A stretch of DNA of 47,698 nt, taken from positions 1-47,698 of the forward strand of contig CATLAR010000005.1 of NCBI GenBank assembly GCA_949878495.1, written 5' to 3'. The number at the start of each line of letters is the position of its first letter. Positions within the stretch are counted from its first letter, which is position 1. A program made the translations under genes and the position numbers. The stretch is from an uncultured Christensenella sp. (lineage in GTDB: Bacteria; Bacillota; Clostridia; Christensenellales; Borkfalkiaceae). The notes under the pieces are model-generated. The model was not told where the DNA came from, ran no database searches, and worked only from the letters and a program-made list of their open reading frames with translations. This document shows positions 6,129-46,165 of this stretch, piece by piece.

Positions 6129-6204
6129 GCACCCGTAGTCTAACCGGATAAAACGATGGCCTCCGACGCCATAGTTGTGAGTTCGAGCCTCGCCGGGTGC
6201 ACCA
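6129..6204 (+). tRNA. tRNA-Arg (anticodon CCG), CCA encoded
   Basis: Acceptor stem GCACCCG/CGGGTGC, anticodon stem ATGGC/GCCAT with loop CTCCGAC (anticodon CCG), GTTCGAGCC T-arm, 3' ACCA. Confidence 0.93.
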
Positions 6205-6240
6205 ACAGCGCAGCCCCCGTTTCGGGGGCTGCGCTGTTGG
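6202..6240 (+). terminator. Hairpin directly abutting/overlapping tRNA 3' CCA
   Basis: ccaacagcgcagccccc-gtttc-gggggctgcgctgttgg; long perfect stem, poor U-tract. Confidence 0.6.
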
Positions 6241-6303
6241 TTAAACTCGGCAAATGTGAGAACTCAGGTTCGCCCGAGCGCGTAGCGCGACGGTTTGCGC
6301 CCC

Positions 6304-6346
6304 AAGCTCCCACCCCCGAACGGTATCCGTTCGGGGGTGGGAGCTT
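6304..6346. repeat. Long palindrome/hairpin
   Basis: aagctcccacccccgaacg...cgttcgggggtgggagctt. Confidence 0.7.
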
Positions 6347-6603
6347 TATTATATCCTAAATTAAATAAATAATTTTTTATACCAATCCCAACATTCTTTA
6401 AGATAATTCCACACGTTATCGCCTTGCCACGAATAAATGCAACAGAACTCAATCGCCGCTATCGCAACATAAACCGCAACGCCGATTAATAAAATCATTA
6501 ATTCCTTCTTTTTCATCTATCTACCCGTAATTTCTCAGCTTTTTAATTATAGCGCTAATGTTTTAAAAAAATCAAGCTATTTTATAATTATAAATTAGTT
6601 ATT

Positions 6604-7092
6604 ATGCCAAAAATAAATCGTAGCATAATGATTATGGAACATTCGGAAAAATTCAAAAAGAGATTTTTAGAACTTATTGACGATTTGGATTGTAAAAAAT
6701 CGGAAATACCAAAACTATTAAACGTTGACTATAACGTTTTTATCAAGATTACGGAATTCGGCGTTATTCCGAAACCGGTGATTTTAATCAGAATTGCCGA
6801 TTACTTTAATACTTCGGTTGAATATCTTTTAGGCAGAACGGATAATGCGTACTTTTTTAAAGCCGAAAATAAAACTTCGTTTTTAAACAGATACCAATTA
6901 TTAAAGTCCGAAAATAAAATGACTGATTATGCCGTAGCGCAAAAGTTGCACGTTACGACGAGTTATACTACAAATTGGAAGAATAAAAATTATACGCCGT
7001 CAATCGTTAATTTAATTGAGCTGTCGGAAATATTCAAAGTTTCAATAGATTATCTGCTTGGCAGAACGGACGATAAAACGCCTTACAATTAA
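6604..7092 (+). CDS. XRE-family regulator with two tandem HTH units
   Basis: Two HTH_3-like units, each ending in 'YLLGRTD'. Confidence 0.8.
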   Translation: MPKINRSIMIMEHSEKFKKRFLELIDDLDCKKSEIPKLLNVDYNVFIKITEFGVIPKPVILIRIADYFNTSVEYLLGRTDNAYFFKAENKTSFLNRYQLLKSENKMTDYAVAQKLHVTTSYTTNWKNKNYTPSIVNLIELSEIFKVSIDYLLGRTDDKTPYN

Positions 7093-33531: not shown

Positions 33532-33572
33532 TTATCCATAAAGCCCTTACGGGCGTCTTAAAGGTGCGAATT

Positions 33573-34244
33573 ATGGCAAATATTATGATAGTTGAGGACG
33601 ACGCCAACATTCGTCTGTTGCTCGAAGCCCGCCTTAAATCGCGGCATTCGGTAACGGCGGCTTGCGGCGGGGAGCAGGCGCTGGATTTGTTTGAAAAGAT
33701 CGACGTGGACCTGCTTATCACCGATATAATGATGCCCGAGATGGACGGCTACGAACTCGTTCAGAAACTCCGCGCGCGCGGAATAACCGTGCCCGTGATA
33801 ATGCTGACGGCGAAAGACGCTATTTCGGACAAGGGCAGGGGCTTTGCCGTCGGCTGCGACGACTATATGACCAAGCCCGTCAATTTCGAGGAGCTGGGCT
33901 GGCGCATAGACGCGCTTTTGCGGCGCAGTAAAATCGCCAACGAAGGCAAAATTGTAATCGGCGACGTCGTTATCGACAGCGACTCGTTCACCGTTAACCG
34001 CGGCGGGCGTTCGGAAGAACTTACCACAAAAGAATTCAAACTGTTGTATCTGCTTTTGTCGTACCCCGAAAAAATCTTCACTAAAGAACAACTGCTCGAC
34101 AAAGTTTGGGGCTATTCCTCGGAGAGCGAGGAAACGACGGTGCGCACGCATATCAACAGACTGAGAAACAGGTTCGAGGACTGCGGCGAGTTCGAAATAG
34201 TCACCGTGCGCGGAATGGGTTATAAGGCGGTAATAAAAAAATGA
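33573..34244 (+). CDS. OmpR-family response regulator
   Basis: 'IMIVEDDANIRLLLEARL', 'DLLITDIMMPEMDGYEL', C-terminal winged helix 'TTVRTHINRLRNRFE'. Confidence 0.95.
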   Translation: MANIMIVEDDANIRLLLEARLKSRHSVTAACGGEQALDLFEKIDVDLLITDIMMPEMDGYELVQKLRARGITVPVIMLTAKDAISDKGRGFAVGCDDYMTKPVNFEELGWRIDALLRRSKIANEGKIVIGDVVIDSDSFTVNRGGRSEELTTKEFKLLYLLLSYPEKIFTKEQLLDKVWGYSSESEETTVRTHINRLRNRFEDCGEFEIVTVRGMGYKAVIKK

Positions 34245-35260
34245 AAAACAAAAAAAAGTCGAGCGCCGCGCTTTTCGGGTTCGCGCTCGTCGTGTTCACT
34301 TTGCTTCTGCTTGTATCCGAAATCGCGGTCGCAGTCATAAACAGCGTGCTTGCGGACTCCGACCTCGGCGCGTATTCGACTACGCTCGTAATTCTGCCCG
34401 TATTTTCGCTTGCGGTGACGGGCTTCGTGGTGTATCTGTATTATCTCGTCAACGTTAAATCTCGCACGCTCGTTGAAAGCCTTGAAAGGGTTGCGCACGG
34501 CGACTATACCACGCGCATAGAGATAAAAAAGGGCGACTCTTTCGCCAACGTTTACGAAAATTTCAATAAAATGACGCGCGAACTGACCTCGGTCAAGACG
34601 TTGAGGGAAGGGTTTATTCACGATTTATCGCACGAGATAAAAACGCCGCTTTGCTCGATACAGGGCTTTGCGAGTCTGCTTCTCGAGGGCGGCGCGACCG
34701 AGGAAGAGAGCCGCAGATATCTGACCATAATAGCCAATGAGGCCGAAAGGCTGAGAAACTATGCGGAGGGCGTGCTCGCGCTGTCAAAGCTCGAGCATCA
34801 GGAAGTCGCGGGCGAAAGCAAGGACGTGCGGCTGGATATGCAACTGCGCGAATGCGTGGTTACGATGCAACGCAGTTGGGAGGGCAAGGGCATAGAAGTC
34901 GCGCTCGACCTCGAACCCGTGACGGCCAAAACGGACGGGGAAATGCTGCGGCACGTGTGGACGAACTTACTTGAAAACGCAATCAAATTCACGCCTGAAA
35001 ATGGCAAAATCGCCGTAGGCTTAAAGCGTGCTAACGGGTTTGCCGAAGTAACCGTGCGCGACAGCGGCGCAGGCGTGCCCGAGGGCGAAACGGATAAGAT
35101 TTTCGAAAAGTACTACCGCGCGGGCAACGCGGCAAAAACTCGCGGAAGCGGGTTGGGGCTTGCGGTGTGTAAACGCATTTGCGTGCTTTTAAACGGCGAA
35201 ATCACCTGCACAAGCAAACTTGGCGAAGGCTCGGAATTTAAAGTAAAACTGAACGTTTAA
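34241..35260 (+). CDS. Sensor histidine kinase (HAMP, HisKA, HATPase)
   Basis: 'FIHDLSHEIKTPLCSIQGFASLL', 'LLENAIKFTPENGKIAV', 'GSGLGLAVCKRI'. Confidence 0.95.
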   Translation: MKNKKKSSAALFGFALVVFTLLLLVSEIAVAVINSVLADSDLGAYSTTLVILPVFSLAVTGFVVYLYYLVNVKSRTLVESLERVAHGDYTTRIEIKKGDSFANVYENFNKMTRELTSVKTLREGFIHDLSHEIKTPLCSIQGFASLLLEGGATEEESRRYLTIIANEAERLRNYAEGVLALSKLEHQEVAGESKDVRLDMQLRECVVTMQRSWEGKGIEVALDLEPVTAKTDGEMLRHVWTNLLENAIKFTPENGKIAVGLKRANGFAEVTVRDSGAGVPEGETDKIFEKYYRAGNAAKTRGSGLGLAVCKRICVLLNGEITCTSKLGEGSEFKVKLNV

Positions 35261-35261
35261 A

Positions 35262-35305
35262 TAAAATATAAAGCGCGGGGCATTACGGTAATTCCCATAG
35301 GGAAT
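35262..35305 (+). repeat. Left imperfect inverted repeat of the rSAM/PRP cassette
   Basis: TAAAATATAAAGCGCGGGGCATTACGGTAATTCCCATAGGGAAT; related in inverted orientation to 41669-41711. Confidence 0.6.
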
Positions 35306-35334
35306 ATTAGGTAAGCCGCAGGCGAAAGAGAATT

Positions 35335-35357
35335 AGGCGTGGCGTGAAGCCACGCCT
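35335..35357 (+). terminator. Hairpin downstream of the histidine kinase (weak terminator)
   Basis: aggcgtggc-gtgaa-gccacgcct. Confidence 0.5.
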
Positions 35358-35459
35358 TTACTCTTGATAGGTTTCGTCGCGCTCGTTTTCCTTTTCTACG
35401 GGCGGAATATTATCTCTCTCATAGGAATCTCGGATAACTCCGGTAGCACTCATTGTCAT
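35358..35459 (-). CDS. Tentative 33-aa ORF (MTMSATGVIRDSYERDNIPPVEKENERDETYQE), possible remnant
   Basis: Complete ORF read on the minus strand; no good SD. Confidence 0.25.
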   Translation of the reverse strand: MTMSATGVIRDSYERDNIPPVEKENERDETYQE

Positions 35460-35526
35460 ACAAAACTGAACGACAATAAAAGCCTATCGCGTTGTTTGTT
35501 TTTGAGATCAAATAGGCGGTTTAAGG

Positions 35527-35555
35527 TTGACTTTTGAGGCGCCAGCTGATAAAAT
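35527..35555 (+). promoter_or_regulatory. Cassette promoter
   Basis: TTGACT (35527-35532)-N17-TAAAAT (35550-35555). Confidence 0.6.
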
Positions 35556-35586
35556 AATAAAGTATACTATTTAAAGGCGTAATTAA

Positions 35587-38037
35587 ATGCAACAAAAAAT
35601 TTATTGGGTAGGTCCTAGAAAGTCAGATATAAACTTCGTAAAAGATGTTGATTTTTACGGTTCTGTTACTATTTTTGGAGATGGTAAAAATAATAACATA
35701 ACTTATTGCAACGCAGGCAAAAATCGCGTAAACCACAATGTTTCGGATGCTGATGAGGATCTCTTTTTCTTAAATACCATAAAAGAGATAATCGCGAAGG
35801 ATAATACTGCGCGCTTTTACTTTTACAATCCAAATATGATTTATTATGTTGACGGGTTGGAAGAATATAAGGATTATTTTCTTTGTATAAACGACAAAAA
35901 GCTTATGTCGCAAGCAAACAATAAGAAGTTTTTCCAAGAGGTGCTTGACGGAGTAGTTCCGCTTTTAGAAAGGAGGTTTGGCGAATTTCATCGAAACAAC
36001 AGCGATTATCTCAATCTTGTTGCGAGCTTTGACCGCAAGATAGACGAAAAGTGCAGGTTCATTTTCCAGGCGCCAGTATCCAGCGGGGGTAACGGTACAT
36101 ATCTCATCGACAGCGACAACGTGCGTGACGCCGTATCTCATTTAGAACCCAATAACTATATAATCTCAATTTATAAGGAAAAAAATATTCCCATAAACAT
36201 TCACGCGGTTATTTTCGACGACAAGGTGTTGTTAAGTCCCGGGTCTGTTCAGCTTATGAAAGAGGACGATAATAGACTGTTGTATCGCGGTGCGGATTTC
36301 ATCACTTACCGCCAGATCAAACAAGAAACCCGCGAGAAGTTTGAAAGATATGTAATCGACGCATGTACGGTATTCCAGTCGATGGGTTATCGCGGTGTAT
36401 GCGGTATAGACGGAATGGTTTATAATACTGAAAATGGCGAAGAGGAAGTTGTTTTATTGGAAATAAACAACCGCTTTCAGGCATCTACAGGACTATTTGA
36501 TATTGCGGCAAACCAAGCGGGGTTGCCGTCATTACAGAAAATCAATCTTGCCGCTTTTAACGGAAAATGGGACGAAAGCTTTTTGGCTATAAGCAAATTA
36601 GAAGTCAACTATAGCAGTTATTTTTACATTGACAACGGCACAAAATTCCACAGCGTGCATATTCGCGAAATTTGTAGAAAATTCGCAAAGAACAACGCGT
36701 TGGCGGACATAAACGTATTCGACATAGAAGATGACGGTTATGACGAGACTTTACTTACCGATTCGCTCGCATATTTATACCGAGTGATTTTTTCTACGAA
36801 TATAGCCGCACTCAATGCTGAAAACCGTATTCGCATTAACGAGAATGTAGGCGAACCTTACAAAGCGTTGTGGTATGACAAGATTATAACGGGTTACGAC
36901 GGGGCTTTAAAAGATAAAGCGTTCATTAAAGATTATTTTATTCGTCTTAAAATCGCTTTGCTTACGCAAGGGGTTGTGAAAGACGAAAAGTTTTGCGAAT
37001 ATCTTGATCTGAACAATAAAAGCGTTCGCCCTGCAACGAATAACGCTATAGATATTAAAATTGATTTACCGAATGGTATCGCTGGAGAAAGCGTAAAAAG
37101 GTATCTTGTTATCAACACGCCTGTCGATATCAGGTTCGGAGAGTTTTCGCCGTTCACGCTTACGAGAGAAGATGATAAAAACTATATTTACTATTACGGA
37201 AAGAAACTCACGCAAATAGACGAAACATACGATAAGGATTTTTTAAGCACAAACAAGGTTGACGGCATTGACTATGACCAGGTAGCTTTCCTGTCTACCG
37301 ATAGACTGCGCGTACATATTACAAACTCCTGTGTCTATAAAAAAGATAAGAGCATGGAGTGCAAGTTCTGTAATATCAAGGCGCAGAAAGACGATTTGCC
37401 GTTGAGCGTGATAGATGAAGTTGTAAAGAACTACTGCGCTCATGCGAAGGAATTGGGCTTAAAACATTTTCTTATCGGCGGACAAACCGCAGCGGCATTG
37501 GACCACGACAAGATAGTTAGCGTTGTAAAAATAATACGCAAATACGCCGCTTATGCCGACATATATGCAATGATTGTGCCCTATCCTGAAAAAACAATTA
37601 TGGCAATGTACAATGCGGGAATGAATCAGATTTCCTGCAATTTGGAAGTTTACGATGATGACATTGCAAAGCGTTATTGCCCAGGCAAGCGTAAGATCAC
37701 AAAAGACGAATATATTAAGCGGCTAAGATTTGCCACAACTTTGATGGGGCGCCGCGGTGCTGTGCGCAGTATGCTGATTGTTGGTTTGGAGCCGTCTGAT
37801 TCATTGAAAAAAGGCATAGAGGAATTGACGGCAAACGGTATACAACCTATTCTTTCGATTTTCAGACCCTTGCCCGATACCGAACTCAGCCATCTGTGCG
37901 CTCCGTCCATGCTTGAGCTTTACGATATCTATAATCAATCTCAGCAAATTTGCAAAGAACACGGTCTGCTCTTAGGACCGCAATGCGTTAATTGTCAGAA
38001 TAATACTCTGGCTTTACCGTATTGGATGGAAGATTAA
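35587..38037 (+). CDS. ATP-grasp / radical SAM fusion protein (816 aa)
   Basis: N-terminal half: 'SSGGNGTYLID' Gly-rich loop and 'GVCGIDGMVYNTENGEEEVVLLEINNRFQAST' ATP-grasp catalytic region. C-terminal half: 'CVYKKDKSMECKFCNI' cluster motif, 'FLIGGQTAAALDH', 'ILSIFRPLPDTELSHL', 'GPQCVNCQNNTLALP'. Confidence 0.75.
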   Translation: MQQKIYWVGPRKSDINFVKDVDFYGSVTIFGDGKNNNITYCNAGKNRVNHNVSDADEDLFFLNTIKEIIAKDNTARFYFYNPNMIYYVDGLEEYKDYFLCINDKKLMSQANNKKFFQEVLDGVVPLLERRFGEFHRNNSDYLNLVASFDRKIDEKCRFIFQAPVSSGGNGTYLIDSDNVRDAVSHLEPNNYIISIYKEKNIPINIHAVIFDDKVLLSPGSVQLMKEDDNRLLYRGADFITYRQIKQETREKFERYVIDACTVFQSMGYRGVCGIDGMVYNTENGEEEVVLLEINNRFQASTGLFDIAANQAGLPSLQKINLAAFNGKWDESFLAISKLEVNYSSYFYIDNGTKFHSVHIREICRKFAKNNALADINVFDIEDDGYDETLLTDSLAYLYRVIFSTNIAALNAENRIRINENVGEPYKALWYDKIITGYDGALKDKAFIKDYFIRLKIALLTQGVVKDEKFCEYLDLNNKSVRPATNNAIDIKIDLPNGIAGESVKRYLVINTPVDIRFGEFSPFTLTREDDKNYIYYYGKKLTQIDETYDKDFLSTNKVDGIDYDQVAFLSTDRLRVHITNSCVYKKDKSMECKFCNIKAQKDDLPLSVIDEVVKNYCAHAKELGLKHFLIGGQTAAALDHDKIVSVVKIIRKYAAYADIYAMIVPYPEKTIMAMYNAGMNQISCNLEVYDDDIAKRYCPGKRKITKDEYIKRLRFATTLMGRRGAVRSMLIVGLEPSDSLKKGIEELTANGIQPILSIFRPLPDTELSHLCAPSMLELYDIYNQSQQICKEHGLLLGPQCVNCQNNTLALPYWMED

Positions 38038-38066
38038 TCGGCTTAATTGCGAAAGAGGAATAGGAT

Positions 38067-41000
38067 ATGGGAAACGACGAAAAGAAAAATACCAGAGGTA
38101 AGGAATATCGTTTTATAGGGCTTTTAAGACGTTTTAAAAGAAGCGGATATCTTGGAATATCGTTAGTGGCGGTTGTTATTATTGCCATAATTGTAATAGT
38201 CATAGGAGTAACTCGAACTTTTAACGGGCAGATATTTGTGAGCGTACTGAACAATATCACTATAATGTTGATTTCGACGATAGCGACGCTTATTGGTCTG
38301 TACGTAACCGCATTTATCTTTCTCAACGATTCGCTTAAAGAGCGCGCAAAAGAAGACCCCACAATCGGCGATGCAGTCCGTTCCATATTAAAACTCTATC
38401 GCAAAAATATGATATATATCGCTATAGGGTCTATTTTAACGATTGTATGGGGCATAGTCATGAACTTGCTACACGAATCGGGAACGAGCCTGGAACAAGT
38501 AAAGGTTGTTTTAACCGATTTAAGGTGGGCTTTTTTTGTTGTGTATGCAGGGGCGTCGATATTTGTTATTATCTGGATTATACTTTGCAGCCGCGACATA
38601 ACAGACAGCGACTCACTTATTTACAAATATTCTGTAAAAAACCGTGATTTGTTTAAGAGTTTCATTGTTGAACAATATGATAAAGTTTCGAGCGGCGCTT
38701 CGATTTCTGATAAATCCGAATTCGATAACGACGATTGGATTACGCAAAGCAGCGGCGACGAGATATTGGATAAATTTTCCAAAAAGGAATATACTCTTAA
38801 CGATGCATACATAAAAGCGAATAAAGACGGCGATATTATTGAATTCAACAGTGACAACAACGGCACTTTGTCAGATGAACTGTTCGGCAGATACGAAATC
38901 GAATTGGGTAAGATTGTCCGTCTTTTGGAAAATATGATCGGGCGCATAAGCGACAATAATATTGATAAGTCGATTATGAACAACGAGTACCGCAACGAAA
39001 GTTTGAAAAATGGATTTATGTGGCTTTTTGCGCAATATGCGGATGCTCCACGTGCTACCAGTGATGGAAAACAACGTTACAATAAGGCAAACTTAATTGA
39101 CGTGCGCGATGCAAAGCGTTTTCTAGATCATATAAAATATCAGATTATAACCGATGCTACGTTTGAGCGGCGACCTTTTAATAATAGTGAAGTCGAAGGG
39201 GTGTTTGACCGTGTTGTAATGGCATTTGAAAACAGAGGGTTCAGTAGCTCCAAAGAAAACGGCACAGCAGGTAAGCGTGATTTAATTTCTAAATATAAAC
39301 GGGACACGGGGAAAATCATAAACGAATTTTTTGACGGGTATAAGGCTGTAGTAGGTTATCGGGATGCAATGATTCATCTTACCCGCTTTGATAACAAAAA
39401 GGATAAGCCAGGCGATAACAAGCAAAGAACAAGGGGTTCGCGTAAAGATAACGATATCGTTGCCGTGCTCAACTACGCAATTGTTTTGAAGCGTGTATTG
39501 TTGGATAGGTTTATGTCGTTTGTAAGAACTGATGATTTAAGCCTTGGTAACAGTATAATGGATAAGGGATGGTTTAACTATTCCGAGTTGTCCGATAGCA
39601 ACTTCACGCATTCATCTTTTAAGTACATTTGCATGGAAAATGCCATTGTGCGCAAATGCGATTTGTCTACGTGCAGCTTTGTTTTAGCCGATGCAAGCAA
39701 CACTGATTTTTCAGGATCTAATTTTAGTTATTCTGATCTTACGGGTATGGATTTGACCGACGCAAAACTCAACGGAGCGCAAATGAATTCGGTTATCTTA
39801 CGCGATCAACGTGTTGATTCATATGATAAAGGTTTGACTGATCTTATCAAAGCCATAACGGATACGGATATCAAGGATATAAAGAAAGGAAGCGCTATTG
39901 ACGTTCTTCGCCGTGGCAAGCATAAAGATATTTCCGCCAATAATACAAACCGTATAGAATGGAAACGTAATATCTTCAACGCAACGTCTGAAAAAAACGA
40001 CGAAAAGTATAATGATTTAAACGAACTGAACCGAGACAAGTTCGAAAAGTTAAGGACTGCCGAAGAATTAAGGAGTTTAGCCGTAAATGTCTTGAGGCAC
40101 TTTGAAGGCGAACTTATCAATCTGGATAGCCAGGGTAAGGTTGACGTTAATATTCTTTTATACGACGAATCTAAAAAATTCACAGGCTCTTCGGTATTAA
40201 ACGAATCCTATGATTATTTAATGGGAGCCCTTCGGGTAGGTAGTGCAAATTCAAAAGAGGACGATGACGCTAGGGCCATGCTTGAAGAGTATATCAATTA
40301 CCGCAAATATAGCAAAATTGATAAAGATTTATTCGATAATTTTGATACGTATCGAATAGCCGAAGAGAAGCTGGCAACACCGGAAGATGGAGTAGCCTAT
40401 AAGGTAAGTCGTGAAAGTGGTTACGGAAAGATTTATTTCCGCGTAGCTGTTATGGAATCCGCTTCAGTAAACGATGTTTCTATGCCTAATACGGACTTCA
40501 GCTTTGTAAATATGCGCTCGGCATCGTTCAGAGACTCGGATTTGAGCGGTTCAGATATGTACAATACCGATGCTAGGAATGCAATGTTCGCTAGAACGAA
40601 CCTGGCTTCTCTTGATGCGTACAAGGCGAATTTCGACGAAACCAACTTTATCGCGGCAAACCTTATCGGGGCAAATTTTGTTGATTGTTCGCTTAACAGC
40701 GTCAATTTCAAAAAAGCTTTAATGCTGAACAGTATATTTGTCAAATCCCGCGAGGCATGCAAGGCGGAAGAGGAAGGAGGCCAGGGCGAAAATATACCCA
40801 TATACCTTTTAAGAATTCTACGTGCTAAAAATCTGACCCGTGGTGGGCAGGAAGGTGCTCAACGCCTGATGGCGGATATAGAAAATGCAAAAATGGTTTC
40901 GGAGATTACCAACTTCGACAAGGAGAGTATGGTGTCCTGTTTCGACAGCGATTTCTCCGAAGCGATTGCAAATCGCATTATCATACTCAATCTCAATATG

Positions 41001-41570
41001 CTACGCAGCAAGTATATTATGGCAGATATGACTTCGGCGTTTATATACAACTCGGTTATGATTTATAGCGATATGACGAAAGCGAATTTATCTAACGCCA
41101 TAATCATGGGGTGTGCGTTCCATCAGGCTGATTGCTATAAAATAGACTTGCAAAAGGCAATCATATACGCGTGCGAATTTACCAATGCGAATTTGAGTGA
41201 GTCCACAATAAACGCGGCGATAGTATCTAGGTGTAATTTCGACCAAACCAACTTGAATAAAGTTAATTTCACTAGGTCTAAGGTTAACAACTGCTCCTTT
41301 GTCAATTGCAGCTTTAAAGGTATCAATTTGGCGGGGACCAAGTTCTCGAACTGCATTTTCTGCGATATAGATTTTTCAGAGGCAATAGGACTCTCGGATG
41401 TGGAGTTTGACAACTGCGCGTTCCAGATCGGCAATTCCGTAAAGATGGACACTCAGTTTCGTTTAACAGAGCCGGTTACAAACAATGATGTAGTGTTAAA
41501 TGCAAAAGAAAGCGATGGCGAAGGATTGGATATAGCTAGATACGAAACGAAAAAGAAAATAGACGAATAA
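38067..41570 (+). CDS. Large multi-TM pentapeptide-repeat protein (1167 aa)
   Basis: About four N-terminal TM segments (e.g. 'ISLVAVVIIAIIVIVIGV', 'WAFFVVYAGASIFVIIWIIL'); three pentapeptide blocks such as 'ASNTDFSGSNFSYSDLTGMDLTDAKLNGAQM' and 'CNFDQTNLNKVNFTRSKVNNCSFVNCSFKGINLAG'. Confidence 0.85.
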   Translation: MGNDEKKNTRGKEYRFIGLLRRFKRSGYLGISLVAVVIIAIIVIVIGVTRTFNGQIFVSVLNNITIMLISTIATLIGLYVTAFIFLNDSLKERAKEDPTIGDAVRSILKLYRKNMIYIAIGSILTIVWGIVMNLLHESGTSLEQVKVVLTDLRWAFFVVYAGASIFVIIWIILCSRDITDSDSLIYKYSVKNRDLFKSFIVEQYDKVSSGASISDKSEFDNDDWITQSSGDEILDKFSKKEYTLNDAYIKANKDGDIIEFNSDNNGTLSDELFGRYEIELGKIVRLLENMIGRISDNNIDKSIMNNEYRNESLKNGFMWLFAQYADAPRATSDGKQRYNKANLIDVRDAKRFLDHIKYQIITDATFERRPFNNSEVEGVFDRVVMAFENRGFSSSKENGTAGKRDLISKYKRDTGKIINEFFDGYKAVVGYRDAMIHLTRFDNKKDKPGDNKQRTRGSRKDNDIVAVLNYAIVLKRVLLDRFMSFVRTDDLSLGNSIMDKGWFNYSELSDSNFTHSSFKYICMENAIVRKCDLSTCSFVLADASNTDFSGSNFSYSDLTGMDLTDAKLNGAQMNSVILRDQRVDSYDKGLTDLIKAITDTDIKDIKKGSAIDVLRRGKHKDISANNTNRIEWKRNIFNATSEKNDEKYNDLNELNRDKFEKLRTAEELRSLAVNVLRHFEGELINLDSQGKVDVNILLYDESKKFTGSSVLNESYDYLMGALRVGSANSKEDDDARAMLEEYINYRKYSKIDKDLFDNFDTYRIAEEKLATPEDGVAYKVSRESGYGKIYFRVAVMESASVNDVSMPNTDFSFVNMRSASFRDSDLSGSDMYNTDARNAMFARTNLASLDAYKANFDETNFIAANLIGANFVDCSLNSVNFKKALMLNSIFVKSREACKAEEEGGQGENIPIYLLRILRAKNLTRGGQEGAQRLMADIENAKMVSEITNFDKESMVSCFDSDFSEAIANRIIILNLNMLRSKYIMADMTSAFIYNSVMIYSDMTKANLSNAIIMGCAFHQADCYKIDLQKAIIYACEFTNANLSESTINAAIVSRCNFDQTNLNKVNFTRSKVNNCSFVNCSFKGINLAGTKFSNCIFCDIDFSEAIGLSDVEFDNCAFQIGNSVKMDTQFRLTEPVTNNDVVLNAKESDGEGLDIARYETKKKIDE

Positions 41571-41592
41571 ATTATATTAGTTATGATTTTAT

Positions 41593-41625
41593 AAAAAGCT
41601 CTTGGCGTTAATCCAAGAGCTTTTT
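41593..41625 (+). terminator. Rho-independent terminator of the cassette
   Basis: aaaaagctcttgg-cgttaat-ccaagagcttttt. Confidence 0.88.
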
Positions 41626-41668
41626 AGCATCGATAGAAATTGCAACTCTAAAAAATTTGTTTTTTAAT

Positions 41669-41711
41669 TCCCTATGGGCAGTGCGCATTCGCTCCGCGCT
41701 TTATTTTGTAC
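41669..41711 (-). repeat. Right imperfect inverted repeat of the rSAM/PRP cassette
   Basis: Reverse complement reads ACAAAATAAAGCGCGGAGCGAATGCGCACTGCCCATAGGGAAT. Confidence 0.6.
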
Positions 41712-42046
41712 GCAGGATATCAGTCTTCGCGCGAGCGAAGCGACGCTTTGCAAACTTTAATGTAAAAAGTTTCAGATTAATTGTGCAAAGGAGAGGGGCA
41801 GGGGTGAGGTGGTTTCCTGTTTATTTTCGATCTCATCAGTAAGGATAACGCCTTCGGTACGACTGCTGCGCAGTCGGCTTCAACCGGGATGGGAATCCGA
41901 GGGCTGGGAAGAACCCGCGGAGCCGGTAAAATTTGCGTAAAAAAAATTTGTAACTTTTTGTCTAAATCGTTTTATTTTTTCGGGGCGTGATGTTATAATA
42001 GATAATGGTTTATCTAATAACCGATAAAGATACAAGGAGAAACAAG

Positions 42047-42535
42047 ATGTCACATATTGCATTTGAGGGCACTAAGGAGCAGATGAAAGCTCTTCTTAGC
42101 TGCATTTCGGCGCATAAGGGCGAAGCGGGCGCGTTAATGCCCGTAATGCACGAAGCTCAGAACATCTACGGGTACCTGCCCGCGGAAGTTCAGACTGTGA
42201 TTGCCGAAAAACTCAACATACCGTTGGCGGAAGTCTACGGCGTAGCTACTTTTTATTCGCAGTTCTCACTTACGCCCAAGGGCAAACACAAGGTCAGTAT
42301 CTGTCTCGGCACGGCGTGCTACGTAAAAGGATCGGACAAGATTCTGGAAGCGGTCGAGCACGAGCTGAGAATCAAGTGCGGGGAATGTACCCCCGACAAG
42401 AAGTTTTCGATTGAAAGCTGCCGTTGCGTCGGCGCGTGCGGGCTTGCGCCCGTTATGATTATCGACGGCGAAGTTTACGGCAGGCTTAAACCCGACGACG
42501 TCAAGGGTATCCTTGACAAGTATTTGCAGGATTAG
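42047..42535 (+). CDS. hydC: Hydrogenase/NADH dehydrogenase 24-kDa subunit (NuoE/HydC type)
   Basis: 'LMPVMHEAQNIYGYLPAEVQTVIAEKLNIPLAEVYGVATFYSQF', 'CLGTACYVKGS', 'CRCVGACGLAPVMIID'; SD aaggaga. Confidence 0.9.
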   Translation: MSHIAFEGTKEQMKALLSCISAHKGEAGALMPVMHEAQNIYGYLPAEVQTVIAEKLNIPLAEVYGVATFYSQFSLTPKGKHKVSICLGTACYVKGSDKILEAVEHELRIKCGECTPDKKFSIESCRCVGACGLAPVMIIDGEVYGRLKPDDVKGILDKYLQD

Positions 42536-42545
42536 GGGGGCGGAA

Positions 42546-44438
42546 ATGACGGTTGAACAACTTAAAAAAATCGCCGCGGAAAAGGCGAATATAATCAACG
42601 TAAGGCGTATTGTCCGCGAACAGGCGGAAAAACTCTCCCGGACCACGGGTTACAGAAAACAAGTGCTCGTCTGCGGCGGCACGGGCTGTACTTCCTCGCA
42701 TTCGCACGAAGTAATCGAACAGCTCGAAGCCTCGTTCGAAGAGCTGGGCATAGACGACGTTTTAATAGTAAAAACGGGCTGTTTCGGGCTTTGCGCGCTC
42801 GGTCCCATTATGATAGTCTATCCCGAAGGCGCGTTCTACTCGCAAATGACGCCCGAGCACGCCAGGACGGTTGCCGAAAAGCACCTCGTCAAGGGCGGAC
42901 AGATAGTCAAAGAACTGCTTTACGTCGAAACCGTGCACGACGACGGAAGCGTAATCCCGTTTTCGGAAATACCTTTCTATAAGCACCAGATGCGCGTCGC
43001 GCTCCGCAACTGCGGCGTTATCGCCGCCGAGGATATCGACGAGGCGATAGGCGCGGGCGATTACGCGGCTTTGGCGCGCGTACTCACCGAAATGACTCCC
43101 GACGGGGTTATCGAAGAAATACAGAAATCGGGTTTGCGCGGCAGAGGCGGCGCGGGTTTCCCCACGGGTATGAAATGGAAGTTCACGCGCATTGCCGAGG
43201 GTGACGTCAAATACGTCTGCTGTAACGCCGACGAGGGCGACCCCGGCGCGTTTATGGACAGGTCTGTTCTCGAAGGCGACCCCCATTGCGTGCTCGAAGC
43301 AATGACTATAGCGGGCTACGCGGTCGGCGCGCACGAGGGTTATATCTACGTTCGCGCGGAGTACCCCATTGCGGTAGACAGGCTTAAAATCGCCATAAAA
43401 CAATCGCGCAAGTACGGGCTTCTGGGCAAGAATATTCTCGGCAGCGGCTTCGATTTCGATATACATATCCGCCTCGGTGCGGGCGCGTTCGTCTGCGGCG
43501 AGGAAACGGCGCTTATGGCTAGTATCGAGGGCAAGCGCGGCGAGCCCCGTCCCCGTCCGCCGTTCTCGGCGCAGTGCGGACTGTTCAGAAAGCCAACCGT
43601 TTTAAACAACGTTGAAACATGGGCGAATATTGCCCCCATAATATTAAACGGTTTCCACTGGTTTTCAAGCATAGGCACCGAGCGCAGCAAGGGCACCAAG
43701 GTCTTTGCCGTAGGCGGAAAAATACACAACGTCGGGCTGGTCGAAGTGCCTATGGGGACGAGCTTAAAGACGATTATCTACGACATAGGCGGGGGGATAC
43801 CTAACGGCAAGCAGTTCAAAGCCGCGCAGACGGGCGGACCTTCCGGCGGCTGTATTCCCGCAAAGCATATCGACATAGGAATGGACTTCGACAACCTCGT
43901 GTCCATCGGCTCTATGATGGGCTCGGGCGGGCTTATCGTTATGGACGAGGACACCTGTATGGTGGACATCGCCAAGTTCTATCTTGAATTTACCGCCGAC
44001 GAGAGCTGCGGTAAATGCACGCCCTGCCGTATCGGTACGAAGCGGCTTTTGGAAACGCTCGACAAAATCTGTTCGGGCAACGGCGAGCCTGCCGACCTTG
44101 AAAAAATAAAGGAAATTTCGGAGCATATGAAAAGCTCGTCGCTGTGCGCGCTCGGTCAGTCCGCGCCCAACCCCGTACTGTCGGCGTTGGAGCATTTCGG
44201 CGAAGAATATAACGCGCATATCTACGAAAAGAGCTGTCCCGCGGGCGTGTGCAAATCGCTCCTTAACTACTACATAGAACCCGACAAATGTCGCGGCTGT
44301 ACGCTTTGCGCGCGCAACTGCCCCGCAAACGCCATTTCGGGCACGGTCAAAGCCGCGCACGAAATCGACGCAAAGAAATGCATTAAATGCGGTCAGTGTA
44401 TCGCGCATTGCAAGTTTAACGCAATCGTTAAAAAGTGA
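42546..44438 (+). CDS. hydB: NuoF-like hydrogenase subunit (HydB type) with N-terminal thioredoxin-like and C-terminal 2[4Fe-4S] domains
   Basis: 'LRGRGGAGFPTGMKWKF', 'CNADEGDPGAFMDRSVLEGDPH', 'SCGKCTPCRIGTKRLLE', ferredoxin 'CRGCTLCARNCPANAI'. Confidence 0.95.
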   Translation: MTVEQLKKIAAEKANIINVRRIVREQAEKLSRTTGYRKQVLVCGGTGCTSSHSHEVIEQLEASFEELGIDDVLIVKTGCFGLCALGPIMIVYPEGAFYSQMTPEHARTVAEKHLVKGGQIVKELLYVETVHDDGSVIPFSEIPFYKHQMRVALRNCGVIAAEDIDEAIGAGDYAALARVLTEMTPDGVIEEIQKSGLRGRGGAGFPTGMKWKFTRIAEGDVKYVCCNADEGDPGAFMDRSVLEGDPHCVLEAMTIAGYAVGAHEGYIYVRAEYPIAVDRLKIAIKQSRKYGLLGKNILGSGFDFDIHIRLGAGAFVCGEETALMASIEGKRGEPRPRPPFSAQCGLFRKPTVLNNVETWANIAPIILNGFHWFSSIGTERSKGTKVFAVGGKIHNVGLVEVPMGTSLKTIIYDIGGGIPNGKQFKAAQTGGPSGGCIPAKHIDIGMDFDNLVSIGSMMGSGGLIVMDEDTCMVDIAKFYLEFTADESCGKCTPCRIGTKRLLETLDKICSGNGEPADLEKIKEISEHMKSSSLCALGQSAPNPVLSALEHFGEEYNAHIYEKSCPAGVCKSLLNYYIEPDKCRGCTLCARNCPANAISGTVKAAHEIDAKKCIKCGQCIAHCKFNAIVKK

Positions 44439-44449
44439 GGGAGGGTTTT

Positions 44450-46165
44450 ATGGTTAATTTGAAAATAAACGGCATTGCGGTCAGCGTGCCGGAAGGCTCT
44501 ACTATTTTGCAGGCGGCAAAACTCGCCAACGTCAGGATCCCCACCCTTTGTTACCTCAAAGACGTGCAATGCGTCGGCTCGTGCCGTCTTTGTCTCGTCG
44601 AAGCAACGGGCGCAAGGGGCTTGGTGGCGGCTTGCGTTTACCCCGTTTCCGAGGGTATGGAAGTGCGCACAAACACGCCTAGGGTAAGGCGTTCGCGCAA
44701 AACCACTATCGAACTCATACTTTCCACGCACAAAAAGAAATGTTTAAGCTGCGTGCGTTCTATGAACTGCGAGCTTCAGAAACTCGCCCTCGAATACAAC
44801 GCCGAAGAGGACAGGTTCGGCACCGACCACGACTTAAAGCCCATTGACGATTTGTCGGCTTCGGTCGTGCGAGACAATTCCAAATGCATTATGTGCACGC
44901 GCTGCGTTGCGGCGTGCGAGCATCAGACTATCGGCGCGATAGGTCCCAAAAACCGCGGCTACTCCAAAGTCATCGGCTCGCCGTACGACGTTTCGCTCGC
45001 GTTCACGCCCTGCGTAAACTGCGGTCAATGCGTAGTCGCCTGCCCCGTCGGCGCGCTTTACGAGAAGAGTGCGGTCGCCGAGGTCTGGGGAGCAATCGTT
45101 GACCCGAGCAAGAAAGTCGTGTTCTATACCGCGCCGTCGGTAAGGGCAACGCTCGGCGAGGCGTTCGGGCTGCCCGTCGGCACTAACGTGGAAGGCAGAA
45201 TGGTCACGGCTATAAAACAGCTTGGCGACGTAGAGTGTTTCAATATGGATATTACCGCCGACCTCACCATTATGGAGGAGGCGACGGAGCTTTTGTCCAG
45301 GCTGGAAAACGGTAACCCCACGCCTATGTTCACAAGCTGCTGTCCCGGCTGGGTAAAGTTCCTCGAACACTATTACCCCCAATATATCCCCAACTTATCG
45401 ACGTGTAAGTCCCCGCAGGAAATGTTTTCGGCGGTGCTTAAAACGTACTATTGCCGGAAGAACGGAATCAACCCCGACGATCTTTTCGTCGTTTCGGTTA
45501 TCCCCTGTACGGCTAAGAAGTTCGAGGTTTCCCGCGAGGAGCTCGGCGGGTATACGGACGCGGCGCTCACCACCCGCGAGCTTGCCAAAATGATAAAGGA
45601 AGCGGGCATAGACTTTGCCAACCTTTCCGAGAGTGAGTACGACTTGCCTTTCGGCGACGCTTCGGGCGCGGGCGCGATTTTCGGCGCGACGGGCGGCGTT
45701 ATGGAGGCGGCTCTGCGCACCGCGGCGGTCAAGCTCGGCGGCGACGGCGCGCCCCTCGAATTTAAAGAGGTGCGCGGCACCGAGGGAGTAAAGGAAGCCG
45801 AATATACGCTCGGCGGCACTACGGTAAAGATAGCGGTGGCAAGCGGGCTTGGCAACGCGAGAAAGGTTCTCGACGCGATTAAGAGCGGCGAAAAGGACTA
45901 CGCTTTCGTTGAGATTATGGCTTGCCCCGGCGGGTGCGTAAACGGCGGCGGTCAGCCCTACGTTCACGACGAGGTGAGAAACAACGTTGACCTTAAAACT
46001 CTGCGCGCGCAGGCGCTCTACGATTACGACGGCGAGAGGAATATCCGCCGCTCGCACGAAACCCCCGCCGTGGAAATGCTCTACAACGAGTTTTTCGGTT
46101 CGCCCAACTCTGCTAAGGCGCATAAACTTCTGCACACCAAATACTCAAAACGCGAAAAATATTAA
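44450..46165 (+). CDS. hydA: [FeFe]-hydrogenase catalytic subunit (HydA type)
   Basis: N-terminal [2Fe-2S] ferredoxin, His-Cys3 'HKKKCLSCVRSMNC', 2[4Fe-4S], L1 TSCCPGW, L2 IPCTAKKFE, L3 EIMACPGGCVNGGGQP. Confidence 0.95.
   Translation: MVNLKINGIAVSVPEGSTILQAAKLANVRIPTLCYLKDVQCVGSCRLCLVEATGARGLVAACVYPVSEGMEVRTNTPRVRRSRKTTIELILSTHKKKCLSCVRSMNCELQKLALEYNAEEDRFGTDHDLKPIDDLSASVVRDNSKCIMCTRCVAACEHQTIGAIGPKNRGYSKVIGSPYDVSLAFTPCVNCGQCVVACPVGALYEKSAVAEVWGAIVDPSKKVVFYTAPSVRATLGEAFGLPVGTNVEGRMVTAIKQLGDVECFNMDITADLTIMEEATELLSRLENGNPTPMFTSCCPGWVKFLEHYYPQYIPNLSTCKSPQEMFSAVLKTYYCRKNGINPDDLFVVSVIPCTAKKFEVSREELGGYTDAALTTRELAKMIKEAGIDFANLSESEYDLPFGDASGAGAIFGATGGVMEAALRTAAVKLGGDGAPLEFKEVRGTEGVKEAEYTLGGTTVKIAVASGLGNARKVLDAIKSGEKDYAFVEIMACPGGCVNGGGQPYVHDEVRNNVDLKTLRAQALYDYDGERNIRRSHETPAVEMLYNEFFGSPNSAKAHKLLHTKYSKREKY

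Follow-up and report, generated by a model that had tools for sequence, protein, structure and literature searches.

An ATP-grasp/radical-SAM enzyme linked to a pentapeptide-repeat protein in an uncultured Christensenella sp.: a possible mobile conflict module in a cassette that apparently splits a terminator

The window analyzed here comprises 47,698 nucleotides of an uncultured Christensenella sp. (GenBank assembly GCA_949878495.1, contig CATLAR010000005.1, positions 1 to 47,698 of the forward strand). It harbors a unit of two open reading frames (ORFs), which lie on the plus strand with a gap of 29 bp and encode an enzyme (ORF1) and a large repeat protein (ORF2). The unit is preceded by genes for a response regulator and a sensor kinase (33564-35260) and followed by an operon of the NuoE/NuoF/[FeFe]-hydrogenase (HydA) type (42005-46165). 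An earlier interpretation of this DNA, made from the letters alone and termed the sequence-only reading below, had described two co-directional ORFs between a two-component pair and a hydrogenase operon; both ORFs and flanks were confirmed. The unit is composed of the following parts:

35587-38037, plus strand: ORF1, fusion of an ATP-grasp half and a variant radical S-adenosylmethionine (radical-SAM) half, 816 amino acids (Pfam, NCBIfam, motif conservation)
35587-36516, plus strand: ATP-grasp half, residues 1-310, with conserved D275, E292, N294 and R296 (Pfam, homologue alignment, profile)
36940-37956, plus strand: variant radical-SAM half, residues 452-790, with the invariant cysteines C582-X9-C592-X2-C595 (stretch matched by NF045502)
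38067-41570, plus strand: ORF2, protein with membrane segments and pentapeptide repeats, 1167 amino acids (PF00805, E 1.7e-34)
38133-38591, plus strand: four hydrophobic segments, windows starting at residues 23, 55, 113 and 151 (hydropathy scan)
39564-39827, plus strand: pentapeptide block 1, residues ~500-587 (Pfam match and sequence)
40434-40760, plus strand: pentapeptide block 2, residues ~790-898 (Pfam match and sequence)
40944-41441, plus strand: pentapeptide block 3, residues ~960-1125 (Pfam and NCBIfam matches)

ORF1 matched the Pfam model PF04055 above its cut-off and passed the NCBIfam model NF045502 (variant_rSAM) with 153.9 bits against a cut-off of 125. The ATP-grasp model PF02655 remained just under its cut-off in ORF1 (20.8 versus 23.2 bits) and exceeded it in the homologues of three other genomes (G050, G205 and G881). 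D275/E292/N294, C582/C592/C595 and a C-terminal CxxCxNN motif were invariant across six homologues. In profile searches of the PDB, the neighbours were ThiH, at E 1.6e-4, and a peptide ligase of the ATP-grasp type, at E 0.003. Judged from its sequence, the N-terminal half is a predicted member of the ATP-grasp superfamily. With the MSMEG_0568 family of the Nit1C cluster, the radical-SAM half has the NF045502 variant domain in common, and it is distantly similar to TIGR04043. It differs, however, in that it reached 90.7 bits on TIGR04043 (cut-off 303.7) and is fused to an ATP-grasp half; furthermore, no nitrilase or other Nit1C genes were found among the ORFs neighbouring ORF1. The previous proposal that the enzyme produces or alters a peptide or small molecule is upheld in part, as the domains of ORF1, to which the support is confined, make it probable. 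AlphaFold predictions for ORF1 and ORF2 from two-row alignments (predicted local distance difference test values of 36.4 and 34.6) gave no usable model.

In ORF2, the pentapeptide-repeat model PF00805 was passed with 117.4 bits (cut-off 20.2). The hydrophobic segments are confined to the first ~175 residues; the protein has a helical-looking middle and about 30 pentapeptide-like units arranged in three blocks. Membrane segments of ORF2 and of its homologues were called by hydropathy alone, without a dedicated transmembrane predictor. Thus, of the former description as a multi-transmembrane protein, the four hydrophobic segments stand, with the hydropathy scan as their basis. The suggestion of a McbG/Qnr-like immunity factor was not supported, since the Qnr (best 57 bits, cut-off 240) and MfpA (43.9 bits, cut-off 360) equivalog models failed and matched ORF2 as generic pentapeptide repeats.

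Full-length enzymes were identified in eight genomes, namely this one (G000), G050, G248, G405, G340, G1025, G205 and G881, all belonging to one bacterial order; the relatives compared are draft assemblies of that order. A pentapeptide-repeat gene adjoins each of the eight and also an ATP-grasp-only version in G857, i.e., nine of nine loci. The adjacency persists at enzyme identities of 30-55% and partner identities of 23-42%, over several families of the order, and the gene order is co-directional or convergent depending on the locus. The partners vary widely in length (488-1190 amino acids) and differ strongly in repeat content. Among 101 relatives, a single other genome (G050, same genus) contained a full-length enzyme (38% identity); there, an ORF2 homologue (27% identity) follows directly and is succeeded by a PPDK_N enzyme. 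Of 397 genomes of the order searched by profile, five encoded an enzyme of full length, this one included, which is a very patchy distribution; family-level searches added two genomes, and a profile search of 399 phylum-wide genomes revealed no further one. Pattern scans of genome and viral contigs led back to the G050 record (L015) only, with no hit among the viral sequences. The plasmid matches listed covered the radical-SAM half, in its MSMEG_0568-type form, and the single phage match likewise covered that half only. In literature searches for the domain combination the pair was not found described.

In the enzyme tree, ORF1 is placed beside the enzyme of a genome from a different family instead of beside that of its congener, as expected under horizontal transfer. 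The two genes also stand out from the other checked genes of the window in their GC content (0.40 versus 0.48-0.59), in GC at third codon positions (0.44 versus 0.61-0.70) and in codon-usage distance (0.48 versus 0.17-0.37). The AT-rich composition and deviating codon choice remarked upon in the sequence-only reading were thereby borne out, and the values are foreign to the flanks rather than those of a vertically conserved segment of ordinary composition. Its wider claim, a self-contained, horizontally acquired module, is likewise supported by the lasting adjacency within the order, by the tree placement and by cassette ends that are common to other cassettes of the genus (see below).

In G198 (L055, G198:C4, 8597-10607, minus strand), ATP-grasp and radical-SAM proteins are encoded by separate adjacent genes, the latter with the standard CX3CX2C motif. 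These genes are possibly unfused relatives of ORF1; a pentapeptide partner was not found adjacent to them.

The enzymes of G405, G340 and G1025 carry about 200 additional N-terminal residues with FICYRG and VRKE motifs. For two of them the best Pfam match of this part was TIR_2 (E 0.0013 and 0.006; 19.7 and 17.5 bits, cut-off 28), while the third had no Pfam match in its N-terminus and aligned by eye to the other two. Sequence searches of the PDB with this TIR-like N-terminus gave nothing credible. The partners of the three TIR-type enzymes are devoid of membrane segments, whereas four are present in every partner of those enzymes of the clade that lack the TIR-like part (G000, G248, G050). 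In G205, a hydrophobic segment resides on the enzyme itself. The enzyme tree has the topology (G050,((G000,G248),(TIR group))), which places the TIR group inside the membrane type. This pattern is suggestive, not proof, of a replacement of one effector-like module by the other, because one exchange event only is seen. It also favors an effector-bearing conflict module over the McbG/Qnr-like immunity discussed above. Since the effector-like part occurs on either subunit, a physical complex or tight mutual control of the two proteins is suggested over a freely diffusing messenger.

The ends of the segment that bears the two genes were defined by the following features:

35268-35281, unstranded: left arm of a split palindrome, ATAAAGCGCGGGGC, pairing with 41691-41704
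35290-35305, minus strand: left end motif of the cassette, ATTCCCTATGGGAATT (motif scan)
41630-41690, plus strand: right-end element of the cassette, terminating in ATTCCCTATGGGCAGTGCGC (similar copies across the genus)
41691-41704, unstranded: right-hand arm of this palindrome, GCTCCGCGCTTTAT, with a T-rich stretch after it; pairs with 35268-35281

The imperfect inverted repeats reported at the edges are real, as 35262-35305 and 41667-41710 are complementary at 73% over 44 nucleotides and their score was attained by 2 of 200 flank shuffles. They are composite, though, consisting of the split palindrome and of the cassette's own palindromic end. Apparently, ATAAAGCGCGGGGC...GCTCCGCGCTTTAT is a host intrinsic terminator 3′ of the sensor kinase gene that was opened by the insertion. 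Sequences similar to the right end exist in 17 of 41 genomes of the genus and at two further sites of this genome, each after a different gene with its own terminator. Past the shared core ATTCCCTATGGGAAGTGCGC these copies diverge and usually resemble the second half of another terminator. The left end had matches in 39 of 94 genus genomes, and the sequence around it is similar to that at one end of the G008 cassette (L145).

Besides the cassette of the window, five other complete ones were found (G007, G004, G008, G051 and G046), six in total. Their AT-rich passengers encode two GNATs, a zinc-ribbon protein, a nucleotidyltransferase-like protein and one unknown protein; no transposase was seen inside these five cassettes. 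They also split a palindrome. Just outside both ends, the six cassettes showed a cassette-specific inverted repeat with scores of 8, 12, 23, 10, 18 and 11, compared with a mean of 5.9, a 95th percentile of 8 and a maximum of 10 for cross-paired cassette ends. The simplest reading of these sequences is that the cassettes entered the hairpin of an intrinsic terminator already present at the site. Plain transposon terminal repeats were considered as the source of the edge repeats and rejected, since the outer halves match within each cassette and differ between cassettes. Cassettes with the shared ends ATTCCCTATGGGAA.T are located in the window (35268-35305 and 41630-41704), in L141 (3921-4669), in L143 (12513-12963) and in L153, L154 and L158. 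In L145 the cassette is degenerate and shows no clear split stem, and motif pairs in L047, L049 and L063, which stem from unrelated genomes, are probable chance matches.

In many further copies (L150-L179) the shared leader GATAAACAGTAATTTAGCGAGG lies directly 5′ of the start codon of unrelated passengers (GNATs, nudix-like, zinc-ribbon and membrane proteins), and the cassettes thus seem to carry their own expression signals. The eight pair-bearing loci of other genomes do not possess these ends; the pair is therefore not bound to this vehicle. A clean empty site was not found: in G019 the kinase gene is situated directly before the hydrogenase genes and the cassette is missing, but the intergenic sequence does not align to the flanks.

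Like mobile insertion cassettes of the MIC231 type and miniature inverted-repeat transposable elements, which contain passengers between related ends, have no transposase of their own and are presumably moved in trans (PMC6542083; PMC5444012), the cassette of the window holds its genes between related ends, with no transposase inside. It deviates from these elements in that each complete cassette of the genus splits a palindrome, apparently a terminator hairpin. With integron cassettes, the genus cassettes have in common their mostly single-gene passengers (GNATs, a nudix-like protein), yet they have inverted ends on both sides, are dispersed singly and provide a leader before the gene. An integron origin was rejected on account of the inverted ends and the dispersed single cassettes; no integron integrase was seen beside them, attC sites not having been searched with a dedicated model. 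A transposase-bearing element with these ends was not seen among the copies, many of which are cut off at contig ends. To judge by their sequences, the cassettes look like a mobile and possibly undescribed family without a transposase.

Radical-SAM genes related to that of ORF1 were also encountered elsewhere. G037 (L068, G037:C81, 4864-16002, minus strand) contains a contiguous run of seven genes for a TIR-LRR protein, an 851-amino-acid protein, a ParA-like protein (identified by eye), a 795-amino-acid protein, an S-adenosylmethionine decarboxylase, a stand-alone variant radical-SAM enzyme and a PPDK_N/phosphoenolpyruvate-utilizing protein, which looks like another uncharacterized conflict or biosynthesis operon. 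In G321 (L060, G321:C1, 3511-12733, plus strand) a protein whose start is NTPase-like and whose C-terminal half is of the WD40 type precedes genes for an NAD-dependent epimerase, for a variant radical-SAM enzyme and for an M20 peptidase; these and additional genes run in one direction. Near the G857 pair, a candidate defense nuclease (PADLOC PDC-S26, PDDEXK_4) and a tyrosine recombinase are encoded. These three contexts, few as they are, fit a small-molecule or peptide chemistry tied to conflict modules.

We infer from these data the chemistry and a defense purpose of the pair, and tentatively favor a mobile two-gene conflict module, most likely an anti-phage system of the abortive-infection type, a reading whose probability we put somewhat short of even. 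It is preferred because of the linkage at nine of nine loci, the exchange of TIR-like domain and membrane segments, the invariant motifs, the patchiness, the foreign composition and the cassette ends. Further reasons are the radical-SAM relatives that run with TIR-LRR or STAND-like/WD40 proteins, the candidate nuclease PDC-S26 and the recombinase near the G857 pair, and the generic similarity of ORF2 to HalA of the Hailong system (E 5e-11). In such a module, ORF1 would make or attach a small molecule or modified peptide that controls ORF2, and the two proteins would probably form a complex. The beta-helix of ORF2 may be the sensing or docking part, and the output would come from an effector module on either subunit. 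Here, the membrane segments of ORF2 would act as effector by damaging the membrane or letting ions leak; in the sister lineage, the TIR-like domain on the enzyme would do so by NAD+ breakdown. It is doubtful, with a smaller share of our confidence, that the pair represents a new immune class. In such a class, a radical-SAM/ATP-grasp enzyme would control both its beta-helix partner and an effector that is exchangeable between membrane and TIR type, and an undescribed family of transposase-less cassettes inserting into terminator hairpins would have spread it in this genus.

Hailong may be the closest functional parallel to the pair. HalB is a nucleotidyltransferase, whereas the partner enzyme here is of the ATP-grasp/radical-SAM type. 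Because of this enzyme type and the score of ORF2 on the HalA model (42.4 bits, cut-off 250), the pair is not a member of Hailong, and PADLOC gave no match either. The likeness concerns the layout: as outlined in PMC13275509, two genes code for an enzyme and for an effector in the membrane that shows similarity of the pentapeptide type, and the product of the enzyme controls the effector, DNA adducts made by HalB blocking the HalA channel. ORF2, with its predicted hydrophobic segments and its repeats, would be a candidate for such an effector. In a further group of described conflict systems one module stays constant and the effectors can be exchanged, and their parts include pentapeptide repeats and a radical-SAM domain (PMC7159879). 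They are similar to the pair in combining a constant part with variable effectors and differ from it in that ATP-grasp is unmentioned there and their vWA-MoxR core was not seen in the two-gene unit.

Several points weigh against a conflict module. PADLOC-DB 2023 contained no family matching ORF1 or ORF2 at E values up to 1, most pair loci lie among housekeeping genes and not in defense islands, the TIR assignment is sub-threshold, with one of the three enzymes lacking a Pfam match, and the tree shows the exchange of modules once only. In addition, a biosynthetic or protein-maturation role would give identical linkage. As a maturation pair, ORF1 would covalently modify ORF2, either by radical-SAM chemistry on repeat side chains or by ATP-grasp ligation of amino acids or cross-links, and the modified beta-helix would serve as a scaffold or envelope protein and play no part in immunity. 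ATP-grasp and radical-SAM enzymes that modify ribosomally made peptides are known, the ATP-grasp half resembles peptide ligases, and enzyme and repeat protein are strictly linked one to one. However, such a role would not account for the TIR-like fusion or for the membrane segments missing at these very loci, and partner length and repeat content are strongly variable; we regard maturation as unlikely.

Next in rank, and improbable in our view, is a small-molecule biosynthesis locus, whose enzyme would make an antibiotic-like or signalling compound that the membrane repeat protein exports or senses, or from which it protects the producer, the last being the immunity idea of the sequence-only reading. 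The domains of ORF1 are typical of biosynthetic enzymes, a PPDK_N enzyme comes next in G050, and an S-adenosylmethionine decarboxylase and a PPDK_N protein accompany the related radical-SAM gene in G037. In most loci, though, the unit contains neither another biosynthetic gene nor a transporter, the Qnr and MfpA equivalog models fail on ORF2, and a TIR-like domain on the enzyme would be unexpected. That the two genes are unrelated passengers sharing a cassette without joint function is very improbable in spite of the defined mobile ends and the unrelated single genes of related cassettes, as the adjacency holds at the low partner identities given above, in both gene orders and at eight loci without cassette ends, and as the presence of membrane segments in the partner varies together with the enzyme's N-terminal domain.

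If the pair is indeed a conflict module, radical-SAM/ATP-grasp chemistry would join the enzymes that arm or disarm bacterial suicide effectors, and ORF1 would give rise to a signal or a protein modification of a new kind. A direct experimental handle is offered by the exchange between membrane segments and TIR-like domain. Cassettes inserted into terminator hairpins would land inside no gene and before none, and would spread accessory genes while leaving host genes unbroken; those of the genus carry an integron-like passenger set with no integron in sight.

Putative expression signals of the unit and a second hairpin were located as follows:

35527-35555, plus strand: promoter-like site TTGACT-17-TAAAAT with TG ahead of the second hexamer (10/12 matches)
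41592-41626, plus strand: intrinsic terminator for the two genes, with a perfect stem of 14 bp (arms 41592-41605 and 41613-41626)
35335-35357, unstranded: hairpin AGGCGTGGCGTGAAGCCACGCCT close to the left end, terminator-like on both strands

The strong terminator claimed for the unit was found again as the perfect hairpin, although it was absent from the output of an automated terminator scan. Of its own promoter, the consensus-like site exists; since promoter-like sites were no commoner in the region than in shuffles (19 versus 17.6, standard deviation 4.4), the assignment is suggestive only. Around the hairpin at 35335-35357, terminator-like sites were not more frequent than expected by chance. 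Elsewhere in the window, an AT-rich segment (6129-7092, GC 0.39) harbors tRNA-Arg(ccg) and a gene for a 162-amino-acid protein that resembles, by eye, a double helix-turn-helix regulator; it is a possible small integration site.

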